In this document: positions 1,532 through 37,566 of the stretch, one piece after another
Layout of the letters: every line of letters starts with the position of its first letter
How positions within the stretch are numbered: the first letter of the stretch is position 1
DNA from: Gemmatimonadota bacterium
Lineage (GTDB): Bacteria; Gemmatimonadota; Gemmatimonadetes; Gemmatimonadales; Gemmatimonadaceae
DNA length: 37,566 nucleotides
Direction: 5' to 3'
Assembly: GCA_021324635.1 (NCBI GenBank)
Contig: JAJPIS010000100.1
Span: forward strand, 1 to 37,566
Translations under genes and position numbers: made by a program
Notes under the pieces: generated by a model
The model's database searches: none
Told to the model about the DNA's origin: nothing
What the model saw: only the letters and a program-made list of their open reading frames with translations

Positions 1532-1547
1532 TGTTTCACGTGGAACA
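1532..1547. promoter_or_regulatory. parS centromere site
   Basis: TGTTTCACGTGGAACA matches the widely conserved bacterial parS consensus TGTTTCACGTGAAACA at 15 of 16 positions. It lies about 90 bp upstream of parA, where origin-proximal parS sites are common. It would be the loading site for ParB. Only the match and its position are seen; binding is inferred. Confidence 0.9.
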
Positions 1548-1732
1548 TTGGTGCCCGCCGCCCGCGGGAAGTCGGCCCGCGGCCCGGTCCGGCGGCCGCA
1601 TTGCCACAACAATGCGCCACGATCCGCCCACCAACGCACCACAATACCGGCGTGCGCGCCGTAGGGGCGGCATTCATGCCGCCCGCGACCCGCATCCCGC
1701 ACCGATGGCGGGGCGGCCGCGTCCCGCGGACA

Positions 1733-1794: not shown

Positions 1795-2193
1795 GGGCAC
1801 GGCAACGACGGGTGGGGCCATCGGCCGCCGCGGCACGCCGGCGTGCGGCCGTCGGGCACGGCAACGACGGGGTGGGGACACGATGCCGTCGCGGGCACGT
1901 GGCCGCGTTGGGGGGGGGTGGCGTGCGTGTCCCGGCGCACCCGGAACGGCAACAACGGGCGCGGGGTGACGGCGCCGTGGCCACGGGCGGGCGTGTGGAT
2001 GCCCCAACAACCAACGACGGGGGGGGCGCATCGTGACGTCCCGTAGGGGCGGCATTCATGCCGCCCGCGACTTGCATCCCGCACAGAAGCCGGGGCGGCA
2101 TTCATGCCGCCCGCGATTCACATCCGCACGGATGCCCGGCACCGGGAACGGCAAACGGCCGGCGGGATGACGGTGCCGTGGCGACGCGCGGGT

Positions 2194-2301: not shown

Positions 2302-2398
2302 GTAGGGGCGGCATTCATGCCGCCCGCGACCCGCATCTGCACGGATGCCCGGCCCGGCATTCATGCCCCCCGCGACGCGCATCCGCACGGATGCCCGG
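2302..2398 (+). repeat. Left 97-bp terminal inverted repeat of the RAYT cassette
   Basis: Two REP units in tandem. Unit one is the GGGCGGCATTCATGCCGCCC hairpin followed by CATCTGCACGGATG. Unit two is a slightly degenerate CGGCATTCATGCC core followed by CATCCGCACGGATGCCCGG. Its partner is 3081-3177. Confidence 0.85.
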
Positions 2399-2454
2399 GC
2401 GCCCCCACCCGCACGGACGCCCCGCCCGCCGACGCGGGTACGCCCGCCGGTGCC

Positions 2455-2961
2455 TCACATCGGCACGGATGCCTGGTCCCTCCCCCGATATGTGGCGTCG
2501 AGCCACCGTCGCGGGTTGTGCGCGATGTAGGTCCGGCAGCGGTTCCAGTCGCGTGCGTCGCGAATCACGCGGTCGTGATACCCGCGCTGCCACAGAGTCC
2601 CATTTCGGCGCCGGAGAACCGCGCTCACGCGTTTCGCGGAAAGCCCCTTGAACAGCCCCACCACGCGACCCAGAGGCAGCGGCGCACCCGTGTCCAACCG
2701 CAGGATCGCGTGCACATGGTCCGGCATCACGACCGATGCGTCCACGATCAGGGCAGGGATCCGCCGGGGCAACTCGGCCAGGGCATCCGCCACGATCCGC
2801 CCCGCGAGGGTGAGGGCGAGCGTCCCTGCTTCCACCCGCGCCAGTATCGGTGCCCGACCCCGCACGACCGTCGTGATCAAGTACGCGCCCGGCGCCCTGT
2901 AGTCGTGCCCGGGTCGTCGCAACGTCCGACGCCGGATGCGCCTCGGGAATGCCCTCGCCAT
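2455..2961 (-). CDS. REP-associated tyrosine transposase (RAYT, Y1/HUH superfamily)
   Basis: RAYTs are single-domain HUH nucleases related to IS200/IS605 TnpA that nick and process REP hairpins as single strands. The 168-residue length is typical. The metal-binding HUH motif is MPDHVHAIL (H82, H84). The family's C-terminal block LWQRGYHDRVIRDARDWNRCRTY leads into YIAHNPRRW, so Y128 and Y145 are the candidate catalytic tyrosines. The ATG at 2961 gives the usual family N-terminus; a longer upstream frame is only repeat sequence. The last residues (QASVPM and the TGA stop) are encoded by half of a REP hairpin. The gene sits inside inverted REP ends, the arrangement expected if it acts on the repeats of this window. 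Confidence 0.88.
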   Translation of the reverse strand: MARAFPRRIRRRTLRRPGHDYRAPGAYLITTVVRGRAPILARVEAGTLALTLAGRIVADALAELPRRIPALIVDASVVMPDHVHAILRLDTGAPLPLGRVVGLFKGLSAKRVSAVLRRRNGTLWQRGYHDRVIRDARDWNRCRTYIAHNPRRWLDATYRGRDQASVPM

Positions 2962-3080
2962 GGCTGACTCTTGCCGCGATGCGTCATCGCCCCGTCGCGG
3001 CGACGGTCCACGATGCGACGCAAACGCCTGCGCCCCCGGCGCCCCGGCGCCCCCGGCGGCCGCACATGTCCGGGGAGCGA

Positions 3081-3177
3081 CCGGGCATCCGTGCGGATGC
3101 GGGTCGCGGGCGGCATGAATGCCGGGCCGGGCATCCGTGCGGATGTGAGTCGCGGGCGGCATGAATGCCGCCCCTAC
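3081..3177 (-). repeat. Right 97-bp terminal inverted repeat of the RAYT cassette
   Basis: The reverse complement reads GTAGGGGCGGCATTCATGCC and onward, and aligns without gaps to 2302-2398. It ends 38 bp before the start of the methylase gene. Confidence 0.85.
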
Positions 3178-3215: not shown

Positions 3216-4880
3216 ATGCGCTACATCGGGAACAAGACCAAGCTCCTGCCGTTCATCGATGACCTGCTCGACGGGCTGGGGCTCAGGCCGCGCCGCGCGT
3301 TCGATGCGTTCTCGGGGACGGCGGCGGTCGGGAGCTTTCTCAAGGCGCGCGGCGCACGGGTCGTGAGCTGCGACCTCATGACGTTCAGCTACGCGTTCCA
3401 GCGCGCCTATATCGTCACCGATCGGTACCCGGCCTTCGAGGGGCTGATGGACGACCCCGATCTCCGCGCCGCCCGAGCGCGCGCGGAATTCGCACACCGT
3501 GTGGATGCCCGGGTGCGCGAGCGGGAGGCGGCCGGCGAGGGGCGCGGTGCGCGCGCGCACGGGGCGCGCGATGCCGGCCGACGCGCGGACGGGCGCAGCG
3601 GGACGGGGCGCGTGCGGGCTGCCGCCGCGGCCGGTGACGCGGCGACGCGCGGGAACGCAGCCGCGACGCGCCGCCTCGACGAGATCCTCGTCTTCCTCGA
3701 TTCCTACCTCGACCCGCACACGTCGTTCATCTCGCAGCACTTCGCGGCCGCACTCGCCCCCGCGGAGCGCCCGACATGCGAGACGCACTCGACGCACTCG
3801 ACGCACTCGACGCAGGAGACGCGCGAGGCCCAGGCGACGCACGGGGCGCAGGCGACGCACGCACTGAATCCGACGCACGCCACGGCGCAGACGAGGACGG
3901 GGCAGACGAGGACGACGGACACAAGGGGCACGGCGCTCGTGACGAGCTCGACACAGGCGACGAGCACGGCGCACACCGGATGCGCGAGCGGGGCGCGGAG
4001 TGGCGATCCCGGCGACCTGGACGCCGGCGATGACGGACGGGCGCGGCACGGAGGGGCGGGGACGCTCACCCGGCCGAGCGCGCGCGGGAGCGGTGCGACC
4101 GATGTGCCGCCCGTGGCGCGGATGTACTTCACGCTCGACTGCGCGCGGCGGATCGACGCGGTGCGCGAGCGGCTGCACGAGTGGCAGAGTGCCGGCGCGA
4201 TCACGGACGAGGAGTTCTATCTGCTCCTGGCGGCGCTCGTCGAGGCCGCGGACGCGGTCGCCAACACGACCGGGATCTACGCGGCGTACATCAAGCAGTG
4301 GCAGCCCAACGCGCTCCGTCCGCTCCGCCTCCGACTGCCGGTGATCGTCCCGCCCGCGGACGTCGGCCCGGATGCAGACGATCGCGCGCGCGCGGATGAG
4401 GCGCGGTGCGTGGCCCATCTCGGTGATGTGTCGGCGATCGCGCCGCGCGCCGGACGGTTCGACCTGCTCTACCTCGATCCGCCGTACAACTCGCGGCAGT
4501 ACAACGCCTACTACCACGTGCCGGAGCTCATCGCGCGCGGCTGGTTCGGCGCGCCGGTCGCCTTGCGCGGGAAGACGGGGCTTCCGCCGGTCACCGACAC
4601 CAGGTCGGTCTGGTCGACGCGCGGGGGATGCGTCCCGGCGCTCGAGCAGTTGATCGCATCGGTCGACACCGATCACGTGGTGCTGAGCTACAACAGCGAG
4701 GGGATCATCCCGGAGGCCGAGATCGAGCGGATCCTGCGGGCCGCCGGCCGGCCGCGGACCTTCCGGCGGATCACGCGCGAATATCAGCGGTACCGATCCG
4801 ACCGCCCGAGCGCGACCCGGCGGTACACCGCGCATTCGGTCTCGGAGCACCTCTACTACGTTCGCCTCGCGGGACGGTAG
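3216..4880 (+). CDS. D12-class-like DNA adenine-N6 methyltransferase with low-complexity insertions
   Basis: Predicted to transfer methyl groups from SAM to adenine in DNA. The N-terminus MRYIGNKTKLLPFI and the SAM-binding DAFSGTAAVGSFL (residues 30-42) are followed by the catalytic DPPYNSRQYN (421-430). The order suits the D12/alpha class. The protein is 554 residues, far longer than the usual 270-400, because of inserts at about 103-150 (Arg/Gly/Ala) and about 183-298 (Thr/Ser/His/Gln-rich, including HST three times from a 9-base DNA repeat at 3782-3808). The ATG at 3216 was chosen because it directly begins the conserved RYIGNK block; upstream frame is repeat sequence. No restriction endonuclease gene is adjacent, so it may be an orphan (regulatory or anti-restriction) methylase. 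Confidence 0.86.
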   Translation: MRYIGNKTKLLPFIDDLLDGLGLRPRRAFDAFSGTAAVGSFLKARGARVVSCDLMTFSYAFQRAYIVTDRYPAFEGLMDDPDLRAARARAEFAHRVDARVREREAAGEGRGARAHGARDAGRRADGRSGTGRVRAAAAAGDAATRGNAAATRRLDEILVFLDSYLDPHTSFISQHFAAALAPAERPTCETHSTHSTHSTQETREAQATHGAQATHALNPTHATAQTRTGQTRTTDTRGTALVTSSTQATSTAHTGCASGARSGDPGDLDAGDDGRARHGGAGTLTRPSARGSGATDVPPVARMYFTLDCARRIDAVRERLHEWQSAGAITDEEFYLLLAALVEAADAVANTTGIYAAYIKQWQPNALRPLRLRLPVIVPPADVGPDADDRARADEARCVAHLGDVSAIAPRAGRFDLLYLDPPYNSRQYNAYYHVPELIARGWFGAPVALRGKTGLPPVTDTRSVWSTRGGCVPALEQLIASVDTDHVVLSYNSEGIIPEAEIERILRAAGRPRTFRRITREYQRYRSDRPSATRRYTAHSVSEHLYYVRLAGR

Positions 4881-21539: not shown

Positions 21540-21900
21540 GTAGGGGCGGCATTCATGCCGCCCGCGATTCGCATCCCGCACCAATGCCGGGCGGCATTCA
21601 TGCCGCCCGCCGTTCGCATCCCACATGGATGCCGGCCGGCGTGGGATGCCGGCCGGGCGCGGTATTTCCCGCGCCGGGCGCCGTGTATCCCCAACCGCAA
21701 CGGCGAACGGCGTGAATGCCTGGCCCGGCATGTCACGCGGCGCGTGGCATCCCGCACCAATGCCGGGCGGCATGTCGCGCCGCCCGCGGGACGCCGGCCG
21801 GCCGGGCGTCGGTGCGAAATGCGGATCGCGGGCGGCATGAATACCGGGCCAGGCATCGGTGCGGGATGCGAATCGCGGGCGGCATGAATGCCGCCCCTAC
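21540..21900. mobile_element. Gene-less 361-bp element with RAYT-cassette-like inverted ends (possible MITE)
   Basis: It begins GTAGGGGCGG and ends CCGCCCCTAC. Each side carries about 97 bp built of two REP units (21540-21635 and 21802-21900) in inverted orientation, the same plan as the RAYT cassette at 2302-3177. The 165-bp interior has no gene. It is best read as a non-autonomous derivative that a RAYT could act on in trans; this is inference from architecture. Confidence 0.6.
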
Positions 21901-22150
21901 CGGGGGGCGACGGGACGCGGGCGGGGTGACGTGCCGAACGGCGGGCGGCGGGCGGCATGAATGGCGCCCCGGCATCGGTGTGGGATGCGCGTCGCGGGCG
22001 GCATGAATGCCGCCCCTACGCGCGGGGGCGCGCGGCGCGGGCGGCGGGACATGGCGAACGGCGGGCGGCATGAATGCCGACCGTACGGGTACACGCCCGG
22101 CGACGTGCGCGGACGGCGGCCCCGACATCGCGTCCGTCGTTGCTGTTTCC

Positions 22151-22214
22151 GGTACCAGGGGCAATCGCGTCGCGATTGCCCCTGGTACCATCCAAAAAAT
22201 CCCGTTCCTTTGGT
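22151..22214 (-). repeat. Long palindromic element, copy B (inverted orientation)
   Basis: Arms of 18 bp at 22151-22168 (GGTACCAGGGGCAATCGC) and 22172-22189 pair perfectly around a GTC loop. Relative to copies A and C, two bases of one arm differ and are matched by complementary changes in the other. The flank (22190-22214, read in reverse as ACCAAAGGAACGGGATTTTT) matches the leader of the other copies. Confidence 0.85.
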
Positions 22215-22345
22215 GGCCGCGGGACGCGGACGGGGCGACATGCCGCCCGGCATCGGTGCGGGATGCGAGTCGCGGGCGGCGCGACATGCCGCCCGGCATC
22301 GGTGCGAAATGCGAGTCGCGGGCGGCATGAATGCCGCCCCTACAC

Positions 22346-35699: not shown

Positions 35700-37102
35700 T
35701 CACCGCCGGTCCGATGCCCGATACTGTTGCGACCACATCGACTGTCCGCCTGCCGCGGGTCCTCGTCGCCGACGATCAGCCGGACATCCTCGAGGCCGTG
35801 CAACTGCTGCTCAAGGGCGAGGGATACGAGGTCGAGACGGCGCTGTCACCGTCCGGGATCCTCCTCGCCGTCCAGCGTCACGACTTCGACGCGGCCCTGA
35901 TCGATCTCAACTATGCCCGGGATACGACCTCGGGCGCCGAAGGGCTCGACCTGCTCGGGCGGATCCGGGCGGTCGATCCGACGCTCCCCGTCTCGGTCAT
36001 GACCGCGTGGGGCAGCGTCGACGGCGCGGTCGAGGCGATGCGGCGCGGCGCCTATGACTACGTGGAGAAGCCGTGGGACAACGCGCGGCTGCTGCTCATG
36101 GTCCGGCGCCAGGTGGAGATGGGTCGCGCGCTGCGCGCCGGCCGGCAGCTCCAGACCGAGATCGAGACCCTGCGGGGCACGGCGGGGCGGCCGCTGTTGA
36201 TCGCGGAGTCGCCGCGGATGCGGCCCGTGCTCGACCTCATGGCCCGGATCGCGCCGTCCGACGCCAACGTCCTCATCACCGGTGAGCACGGCACCGGGAA
36301 GGAGCTCGTCGCGCAGTGGCTCCATGCCGCGTCGGCGCGCGCGACCAAGCCGTTCACCGCCGTCAACCTGGGCGGGCTCTCGGAGGGGCTCTTCGAGAGC
36401 GAGTTGTTCGGTCACGTCCGGGGTGCCTTCACGGATGCCAAGACGGACCGGGCCGGCCGGTTCGAGCTCGCTGACGGCGGGTCGCTCTTCCTCGACGAGA
36501 TCGCCAACATCTCGCTCTCGCAGCAGGCGAAGCTCCTCCGTGTGCTTCAGACGCGCGAGGTGGAGCGGGTGGGATCATCCCGCACCAAGCGGGTCGACGT
36601 CCGCATCCTCGCCGCGACCAACGCCGATCTGCGCGAGGAGGTGAGCGCCGGGCGGTTCCGTGAGGACCTGCTCTTTCGGATCAACACGATCGAGATCCCG
36701 CTTCCGGCGCTCCGCGATCGCCGGGAGGACATCCTGCCGCTCGCGCGTCATTTCCTCGACCGCCATGCCCAGCGCTACGGGCGGCGCGGGCTGACGCTGG
36801 ACGCGGGGGCCGCGCAGGCGCTGCTCACGCACAGCTGGCCGGGGAACGTGCGGGAGCTGGACCACGCCGTCGAGCGCGGCGTCCTGCTCGCGCAGGGGAC
36901 GAGCGTTCGCGCGGGTGACCTCGGACTCCGTCCGCCGGGCCCGCCGGCCCGGCTCGAGGACCTGACGCTCGCCGAGGCCGAGCGGGCGATCATCGAGCGC
37001 GCGCTCGCCCGGTTCGGCGGCAACGTGAGTCAGGCCGCCCGGGCGCTGGGCCTCAGTCGCAGCGCCCTCTATCGCCGCCTCGAGAGCAACGGGCAGGTGT
37101 AG
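35696..37102 (+). CDS. NtrC-type sigma-54-dependent response regulator
   Basis: A receiver (acidic pocket D26/D27, phospho-acceptor D70, T103, K125) precedes a sigma-54 AAA+ domain. The AAA+ domain has Walker A GEHGTGKE (196-203), GAFTDA contact loop (243-248), Walker B SLFLDE (263-268) and arginine finger FREDLLFRIN. A Fis-type HTH ends the protein (GGNVSQAARALGLSRSALYRR). All 468 residues are typical. It is coupled to the second ATPase by ATGA, so it may regulate this operon, possibly with a kinase encoded outside the window. The stop codon TAG is supplied by a repeat element. Confidence 0.94.
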   Translation: MITAGPMPDTVATTSTVRLPRVLVADDQPDILEAVQLLLKGEGYEVETALSPSGILLAVQRHDFDAALIDLNYARDTTSGAEGLDLLGRIRAVDPTLPVSVMTAWGSVDGAVEAMRRGAYDYVEKPWDNARLLLMVRRQVEMGRALRAGRQLQTEIETLRGTAGRPLLIAESPRMRPVLDLMARIAPSDANVLITGEHGTGKELVAQWLHAASARATKPFTAVNLGGLSEGLFESELFGHVRGAFTDAKTDRAGRFELADGGSLFLDEIANISLSQQAKLLRVLQTREVERVGSSRTKRVDVRILAATNADLREEVSAGRFREDLLFRINTIEIPLPALRDRREDILPLARHFLDRHAQRYGRRGLTLDAGAAQALLTHSWPGNVRELDHAVERGVLLAQGTSVRAGDLGLRPPGPPARLEDLTLAEAERAIIERALARFGGNVSQAARALGLSRSALYRRLESNGQV

Positions 37103-37123
37103 GGGCGGCCGCCAGGCCGCCCC
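37102..37123 (+). terminator. Palindrome fused to the sigma-54 regulator stop codon
   Basis: GGGGCGGCC-GCCA-GGCCGCCCC, 22 bases, begins with the G of the TAG stop. It is identical in sequence and placement to the hairpin at the TonB receptor stop (22346-22367, read on the minus strand). A full REP hairpin follows within a few bases in both places. Confidence 0.6.
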
Positions 37124-37284
37124 GCGGTAGGGGCGGCATTCATGCCGCCCGCCGTTCGCATCCCGCCCCGATGCCGGGACGGCCGCGTCCCGCGGCCCCG
37201 GTGTAGGGGCGGCATTCATGCCGCCCGCGATTCGCATCTGCACCGATGCCTGGCCCCGCATTTCGCGCGGGTCCCGCGTCCCGC

Positions 37285-37351
37285 GGCCACCAATGGAACG
37301 GGTTTGTTGGATGGTGTCAGGGGCAATCGCGACGCGATTGCCCCTGACACC
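37285..37351 (+). repeat. Long palindromic element, copy C
   Basis: Arms of 18 bp at 37313-37330 and 37334-37351 pair around a GAC loop, with the same conserved leader (ATGGAACGGGTTTGTTGGAT) as copy A. Confidence 0.85.
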
Positions 37352-37566
37352 GGGAACAACAACGACAGGTGCGATGACGGCACCGTGGCGTGCGGGCGTA
37401 TGGTGCCCCCGGCACCGCGAACGACGGGTGCGACCATCGGCGGGCGTGGGCGTTGGCACCACGGCGCGTGCCCGCCGGGAACAACCACGGCGGGCGCGAC
37501 GCGGGTGCCGCCGCGCACGGGGCAAACGTGCGCGCACCGTAGGGGCGGCATTCATGCCGCCCGCGA

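Follow-up and report, generated by a model that had tools for sequence, protein, structure and literature searches.

The window analysed here is the whole 37,566-nt stretch of contig JAJPIS010000100.1 from a Gemmatimonadota bacterium (GenBank assembly GCA_021324635.1). Near its left end, a RAYT (TnpA_REP) gene lies between two inverted arms built of REP modules, in a tract bounded by a parS-like site and a gene for a D12-class DNA adenine methyltransferase (Table 1). A previous sequence-only reading had proposed inverted ends of about 92/97 identity at this place, with RAYT as the sole gene enclosed. These ends are exact to the base, and counting gave 92 identical positions in 97 nt, with mismatches at arm positions 30, 32, 37, 67 and 76; the only gene between the arms is RAYT. 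When looser ends are allowed, the inverted repeat extends to 105 nt with 93% identity (2302-2406 / 3073-3177). An exact inverted match of 30 nt is the longest found in the segment; none of 200 shuffles gave one above 20 nt.

The same reading assigned two GTAG-type REPs to each arm. Each arm indeed holds two double-hairpin modules, but GTAG is confined to the outer module, and the inner one begins GGCCCGGCATTC. Both arms are predicted to fold into strong hairpins with GTAG unpaired in either fold, giving the palindrome with an unpaired GTAG at one end that is characteristic of the GTAG REP superfamily. An Rfam search of the window returned no match.

Table 1. Coordinates of the features discussed (positions in the window)
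Feature	Position	Strand	Remarks
parS-like site beside parA	1532..1547	.	TGTTTCACGTGGAACA; left conserved landmark; both congeners have TGTTCCACGTGGAACA here
Single GTAG REP unit	1661..1684	+	Beyond the proposed 876-bp unit; same orientation as left arm
Second two-module REP array	2043..2139	+	Beyond the proposed 876-bp unit; same orientation as left arm
Left arm, REP array of two 46-bp modules	2302..2398	+	GTAG 2302-2305 at outer edge; 92/97 to right arm, inverted
Degenerate third REP module	2444..2494 (approx.)	+	Overlaps 3' end of RAYT gene; 80% to 3063-3113, inverted
RAYT (TnpA_REP) gene, 168 aa	2455..2961	-	HUH D81-H-V-H84, W124-Q125, Y145-IAH-N149-P150; from Pfam, NCBIfam, motifs and fold
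Right arm, REP array of two modules	3081..3177	-	GTAG (minus strand) 3177-3174 at outer edge
D12-class DNA adenine methyltransferase gene	3216..4880	+	Right conserved landmark
Gene-free inverted pair of two-module arrays, GTAG outward	21540..21900	.	361 bp; design of the RAYT pair, RAYT absent

This locus probably lies close to the replication origin, because the parS-like site lies beside parA and is kept in both congeners. The REP/RAYT block is built up between parS and the next gene. Its spacer between two REP arrays carries a 14-bp tandem repeat (GCGGRYGCGTGGGT) at 2188-2241. The D12 methyltransferase has 554 aa, and its middle part (residues ~180-275), with simple repeats among which is ACGCACTCG at ~3785-3815, is unmatched in the versions of the congeners.

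The assignment of the gene rests on several lines of evidence. The ORF scores 28 bits against PF01797 (Y1_Tnp; cutoff 23) and 79.2 bits (E 2.9e-22) against NF047646, the REP-associated tyrosine transposase model, whose curated cutoff is 80. Using a profile built from 24 relatives, the best PDB match was E. coli TnpA_REP 4er8 (E 6.9e-7). The AF2 model (pLDDT 87) superposes on 4er8 with an rmsd of 1.9 A over 129 columns, giving the TnpA_REP fold by both profile and superposition, and also matches the ISDra2/IS608 transposases. The Y1 transposase domain carries HUH and Y...NP (H82/H84, Y145, N149, P150), the signature of class 2 RAYTs. H82, H84 and the catalytic Y145 are conserved among close relatives, and the HUH, WQ and Y...NP motifs are all intact. 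Residues W124, Q125, D130, R131 and R134 align with W94, Q95, E100, H101 and R104, which contact GTAG in TnpA_REP (PMC6006769); the changes of E100 to D and of H101 to R are reported for TnpA_REP subclasses 2.5 and 2.7 (PMC6006769). A search of the organism's own draft genome for other RAYTs found none. We infer that the gene arrived by horizontal transfer, and no donor is named, since its nearest relatives are poorly resolved in the tree (support 89/74).

REP modules, arrays and their distribution

The module totals 45-47 bp: hairpin 1 is GGGCGGCAT-TC-ATGCCGCCC, the spacer reads GCGAYYCGC, and hairpin 2, which is weaker, lies around CATCC...GGATG. Arrays of such modules were surveyed in the window and in 55 further stretches of the genome, which were picked by their GTAG-bearing matches. 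Among the 137 arrays obtained, 79 have one module, 39 two, 11 three, six four and two five. GTAG stands at the head module in 113 of the 137, a figure somewhat favoured by the GTAG-based choice of stretches, and in none of the 87 inner modules, a count that this choice does not favour. Across the 108 heads that carry the tag, the initial 26 nt, comprising the GTAG hairpin, are near-invariant, while the remainder, including the second hairpin, varies; the base preceding GTAG is C in 91 of them. RNAalifold covariation on the modules was uninformative for hairpin 1, which varies too little.

Of 18 cases in which neighbouring arrays face in opposite directions, 16 have GTAG on the outside (binomial p 0.0013); in the two exceptions the arrays are separated by more than 880 bp. 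The arm pair around RAYT has the same outward polarity and the widest spacing between hairpins, 737 bp, compared with 110-302 bp in the remaining pairs. Several GTAG-outward pairs have a common interior of ~150 bp and are REPIN-like composite elements. Dense REP clusters occur elsewhere in the window, at 21540-22343 and 37099-37562. Arrays of one to five tandem modules with GTAG on the first only, together with the lineage-restricted expansion of the family, are mildly new.

The 24-nt GTAG hairpin has 260 matches in the organism's own genome at up to three mismatches, compared with 0 for the reversed control. The repeat is dispersed in some 200-260 copies over the genome of this soil bacterium, and the two arms are ordinary members of the family. 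At up to two mismatches it is absent from the 98 other genomes of the family (present in 1/99, the own genome), and at up to one mismatch from the 394 other genomes of the phylum. The REP family and RAYT thus co-occur in one of 395 phylum genomes, with a many-copy flanking REP cognate to the RAYT of the same genome. The assembly is a draft of 127 contigs, many of whose REP arrays lie at contig ends (contigs starting or ending in arrays include C5:41, C43:80, C46:1, C52:89, C58:2 and C59:37); the counts are therefore lower bounds, and the repeats probably broke the assembly.

A RAYT is also present in one congener, G002, on a contig different from that of its parA-methyltransferase locus; it is 43% identical, is associated with another palindrome and was rejected as an ortholog on these grounds. 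In another genus of the same family, several RAYT copies are present in each of two genomes (G055 and G031). Four of these genes (L013, L014, L021, L023) are enclosed by inverted repeats of 59-222 bp with a CTAC-ended hairpin facing the gene, the polarity opposite to that in the window. Hymenobacter RAYTs (L069, L077, L098) have GTAG and two-hairpin inverted flanks of up to 114 bp, of a design like that in the window.

Possible movement of the REP family and of the gene

The locus is very probably a REPtron, that is, a single-copy RAYT amid its cognate GTAG REPs, with the REP family spreading in trans and the gene staying put. The gene is located between inverted REPs, and RAYT is single copy in the draft genome. 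RAYT, a predicted HUH/Y1 ssDNA endonuclease, would most likely bind GTAG and its hairpin on single-stranded DNA, and would cut and rejoin the DNA at the GTAG hairpin. REP units and GTAG-outward REP pairs would thereby be copied round the genome in trans, and the RAYT gene itself would remain at its arrival site. We infer the cutting at GTAG hairpins and the dispersal of REPs by RAYT from homology; other TnpA_REPs cut GTAG hairpins in vitro, and no evidence of tnpA_REP gene mobility was reported in the same study (Corneloup et al. 2021, PMC8266576). The near-invariant GTAG head and the outward pairing of GTAG point to an enzyme that recognises the array head. The cutting rules may differ from those of Pseudomonas REPINs, because direct tandem modules with one GTAG differ from the inverted doublets found there.

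It is also conceivable, though unlikely, that RAYT once arrived by transposon or transfer and is now fixed, dying or used by the host, the later spread of REPs being due to slippage and recombination and not to RAYT. The 45-47 bp tandem modules with no inner GTAG resemble slippage products, and the duplicated blocks exceed the REPs and include their flanks, as in the 290-nt block that contains array 2043-2139 with its 5' flank and is 93% identical to contig C53. Against slippage stand the near-invariance of the 26-nt GTAG head in 108 arrays in which the second hairpin varies, the pairs that hold GTAG outward and the intact motifs of RAYT.

The sequence-only reading took the arms as the limits of an 876-bp transposable unit, 2302-3177. 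It is very improbable that this unit is an autonomous IS-like element that moves whole and has the two 97-bp REP arrays for functional ends. Its inverted ends are equal in length with GTAG outermost, and each of the two arms has the other as its best match (94.8%, ranked 27th among 1596 pairs when 57 two-module elements were compared). This mutual best match is in favour of some pairing of ends; it is likewise compatible with local copying or gene conversion. In both congeners the order of parA, the parS site and the D12 methyltransferase is kept, with no RAYT and no REP between them. The tract missing from the congeners is ~1.6 kb and not 876 bp. The distance from parS to the methyltransferase start is 110 and 45 bp in the congeners versus 1,668 bp in the window, so that, on this comparison, the stretch gained (or, less simply, lost twice) is the entire ~1.6-kb REP block including RAYT. 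DNA alignment of the intergenic tract for exact insertion points found nothing alignable with the congeners beyond parS and the methyltransferase start.

Evidence from the organism's own genome also argues against the IS-like element. A search for second copies of the cassette found none; its interior (2410-3070) is single copy, as is RAYT, although identical extra copies could be collapsed in the 127-contig assembly, since many REP arrays sit at contig ends. A comparison with the interiors of the other inverted pairs found no sequence in common with it. Repeat homology crosses both proposed ends: 22 alignments to other REP loci span 2302 with at least 20 bp on each side, and nine extend 13-24 bp beyond 3177, at loci with no RAYT. 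Repeat coverage reaches zero only within the RAYT gene and past ~3200. The array-spacer-array block 2042-2400 recurs at six other loci with 69-72% identity and with no RAYT. No set of near-identical copies that move together, as in IS200/IS605, was found, and according to the published view REPtrons are not mobile as units (PMC6006769). That the ends delimit a transposable unit is therefore not supported. There is no sign of the gene and repeats jumping together, and the line between a domesticated RAYT and an insertion sequence is not blurred in the way that had been suggested. A related proposal is that the transposable unit is the head-tagged tandem array (one GTAG and one to five double-hairpin modules), RAYT being inside an array-ended element that occasionally moves whole. 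We consider this a long shot; if true, such an element would stand midway between insertion sequences and domesticated RAYTs, observed shortly after its entry into one Gemmatimonadota lineage.

Finally, expression control of RAYT by the inverted repeats, acting as hairpin terminators or attenuators and not in DNA processing, would accord with the strong predicted hairpins of the arms and with the degenerate module overlapping the 3' end of the gene, but is scarcely credible given the same arrays at many RAYT-free sites in both orientations, and it leaves the conservation of GTAG unexplained.

Comparison with known systems

RAYTs were defined in 2010 with inverted flanking REPs (Nunvar et al., PMC2817692). 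Among public relatives with enough flank, significant inverted repeats surround RAYT in 17 of 70, mostly with GTAG hairpins, compared with 0 of 205 mismatched controls. The premise that in known pairs the REPs are usually scattered or stand singly next to the gene was therefore wrong. Di Nocera et al. 2013 (PMC3733652) introduced the name REPtron and described flanking dimers, gene-end overlaps and double-hairpin inverted repeats. No RAYT report from Gemmatimonadota was found in the limited set of open papers searched.

The IS200/IS605 elements IS608 and ISDra2 share with the window RAYT the HUH/Y1 fold and, as predicted for the latter, hairpin recognition. Their class 1.1 motif is Y...Q, whereas the window RAYT has Y145-IAH-NP (Y...NP), and they have no terminal inverted repeats, in contrast to the long inverted ends and the single copy seen here. 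TIRtrons (Di Nocera 2013, PMC3733652) likewise have a RAYT-like gene within long inverted repeats. In two cases, from P. putida and P. fluorescens, a degenerate GTAG unit is joined to a second hairpin, while the ends in the window consist of intact GTAG REPs from an abundant family. With TnpA_REP class 2 (Quentin 2018, PMC6006769) the protein shares DHVH, WQ and Y...NP, ~168 aa and one copy; its signatures resemble those of subclasses 2.4, 2.5 and 2.7 (PMC6006769).

REPINs (Bertels and Rainey 2011, PMC3116915) are inverted REP pairs with a spacer, and the present genome has 15 further GTAG-outward pairs, several with the common interior described above. The Pseudomonas doublets are ~71-110 bp (PMC3116915), whereas the pairs here are 157-484 bp and built of arrays. 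The restriction of GTAG to the head of tandem modules yields a rule on enzyme recognition that can be tested. The REP family occurs in just one of the 395 phylum genomes and is missing from two congeners, which makes the locus a good case for genome invasion by a RAYT and its REPs. As in REPtrons (PMC2817692; PMC3733652), a single RAYT stands between inverted GTAG palindromic repeats that are abundant in the genome; where those REPtrons have single flanking REPs, the window has two-module direct tandem arrays in a Gemmatimonadota host. Taken together, the locus is best regarded as an ordinary but clean REPtron, new to its lineage.
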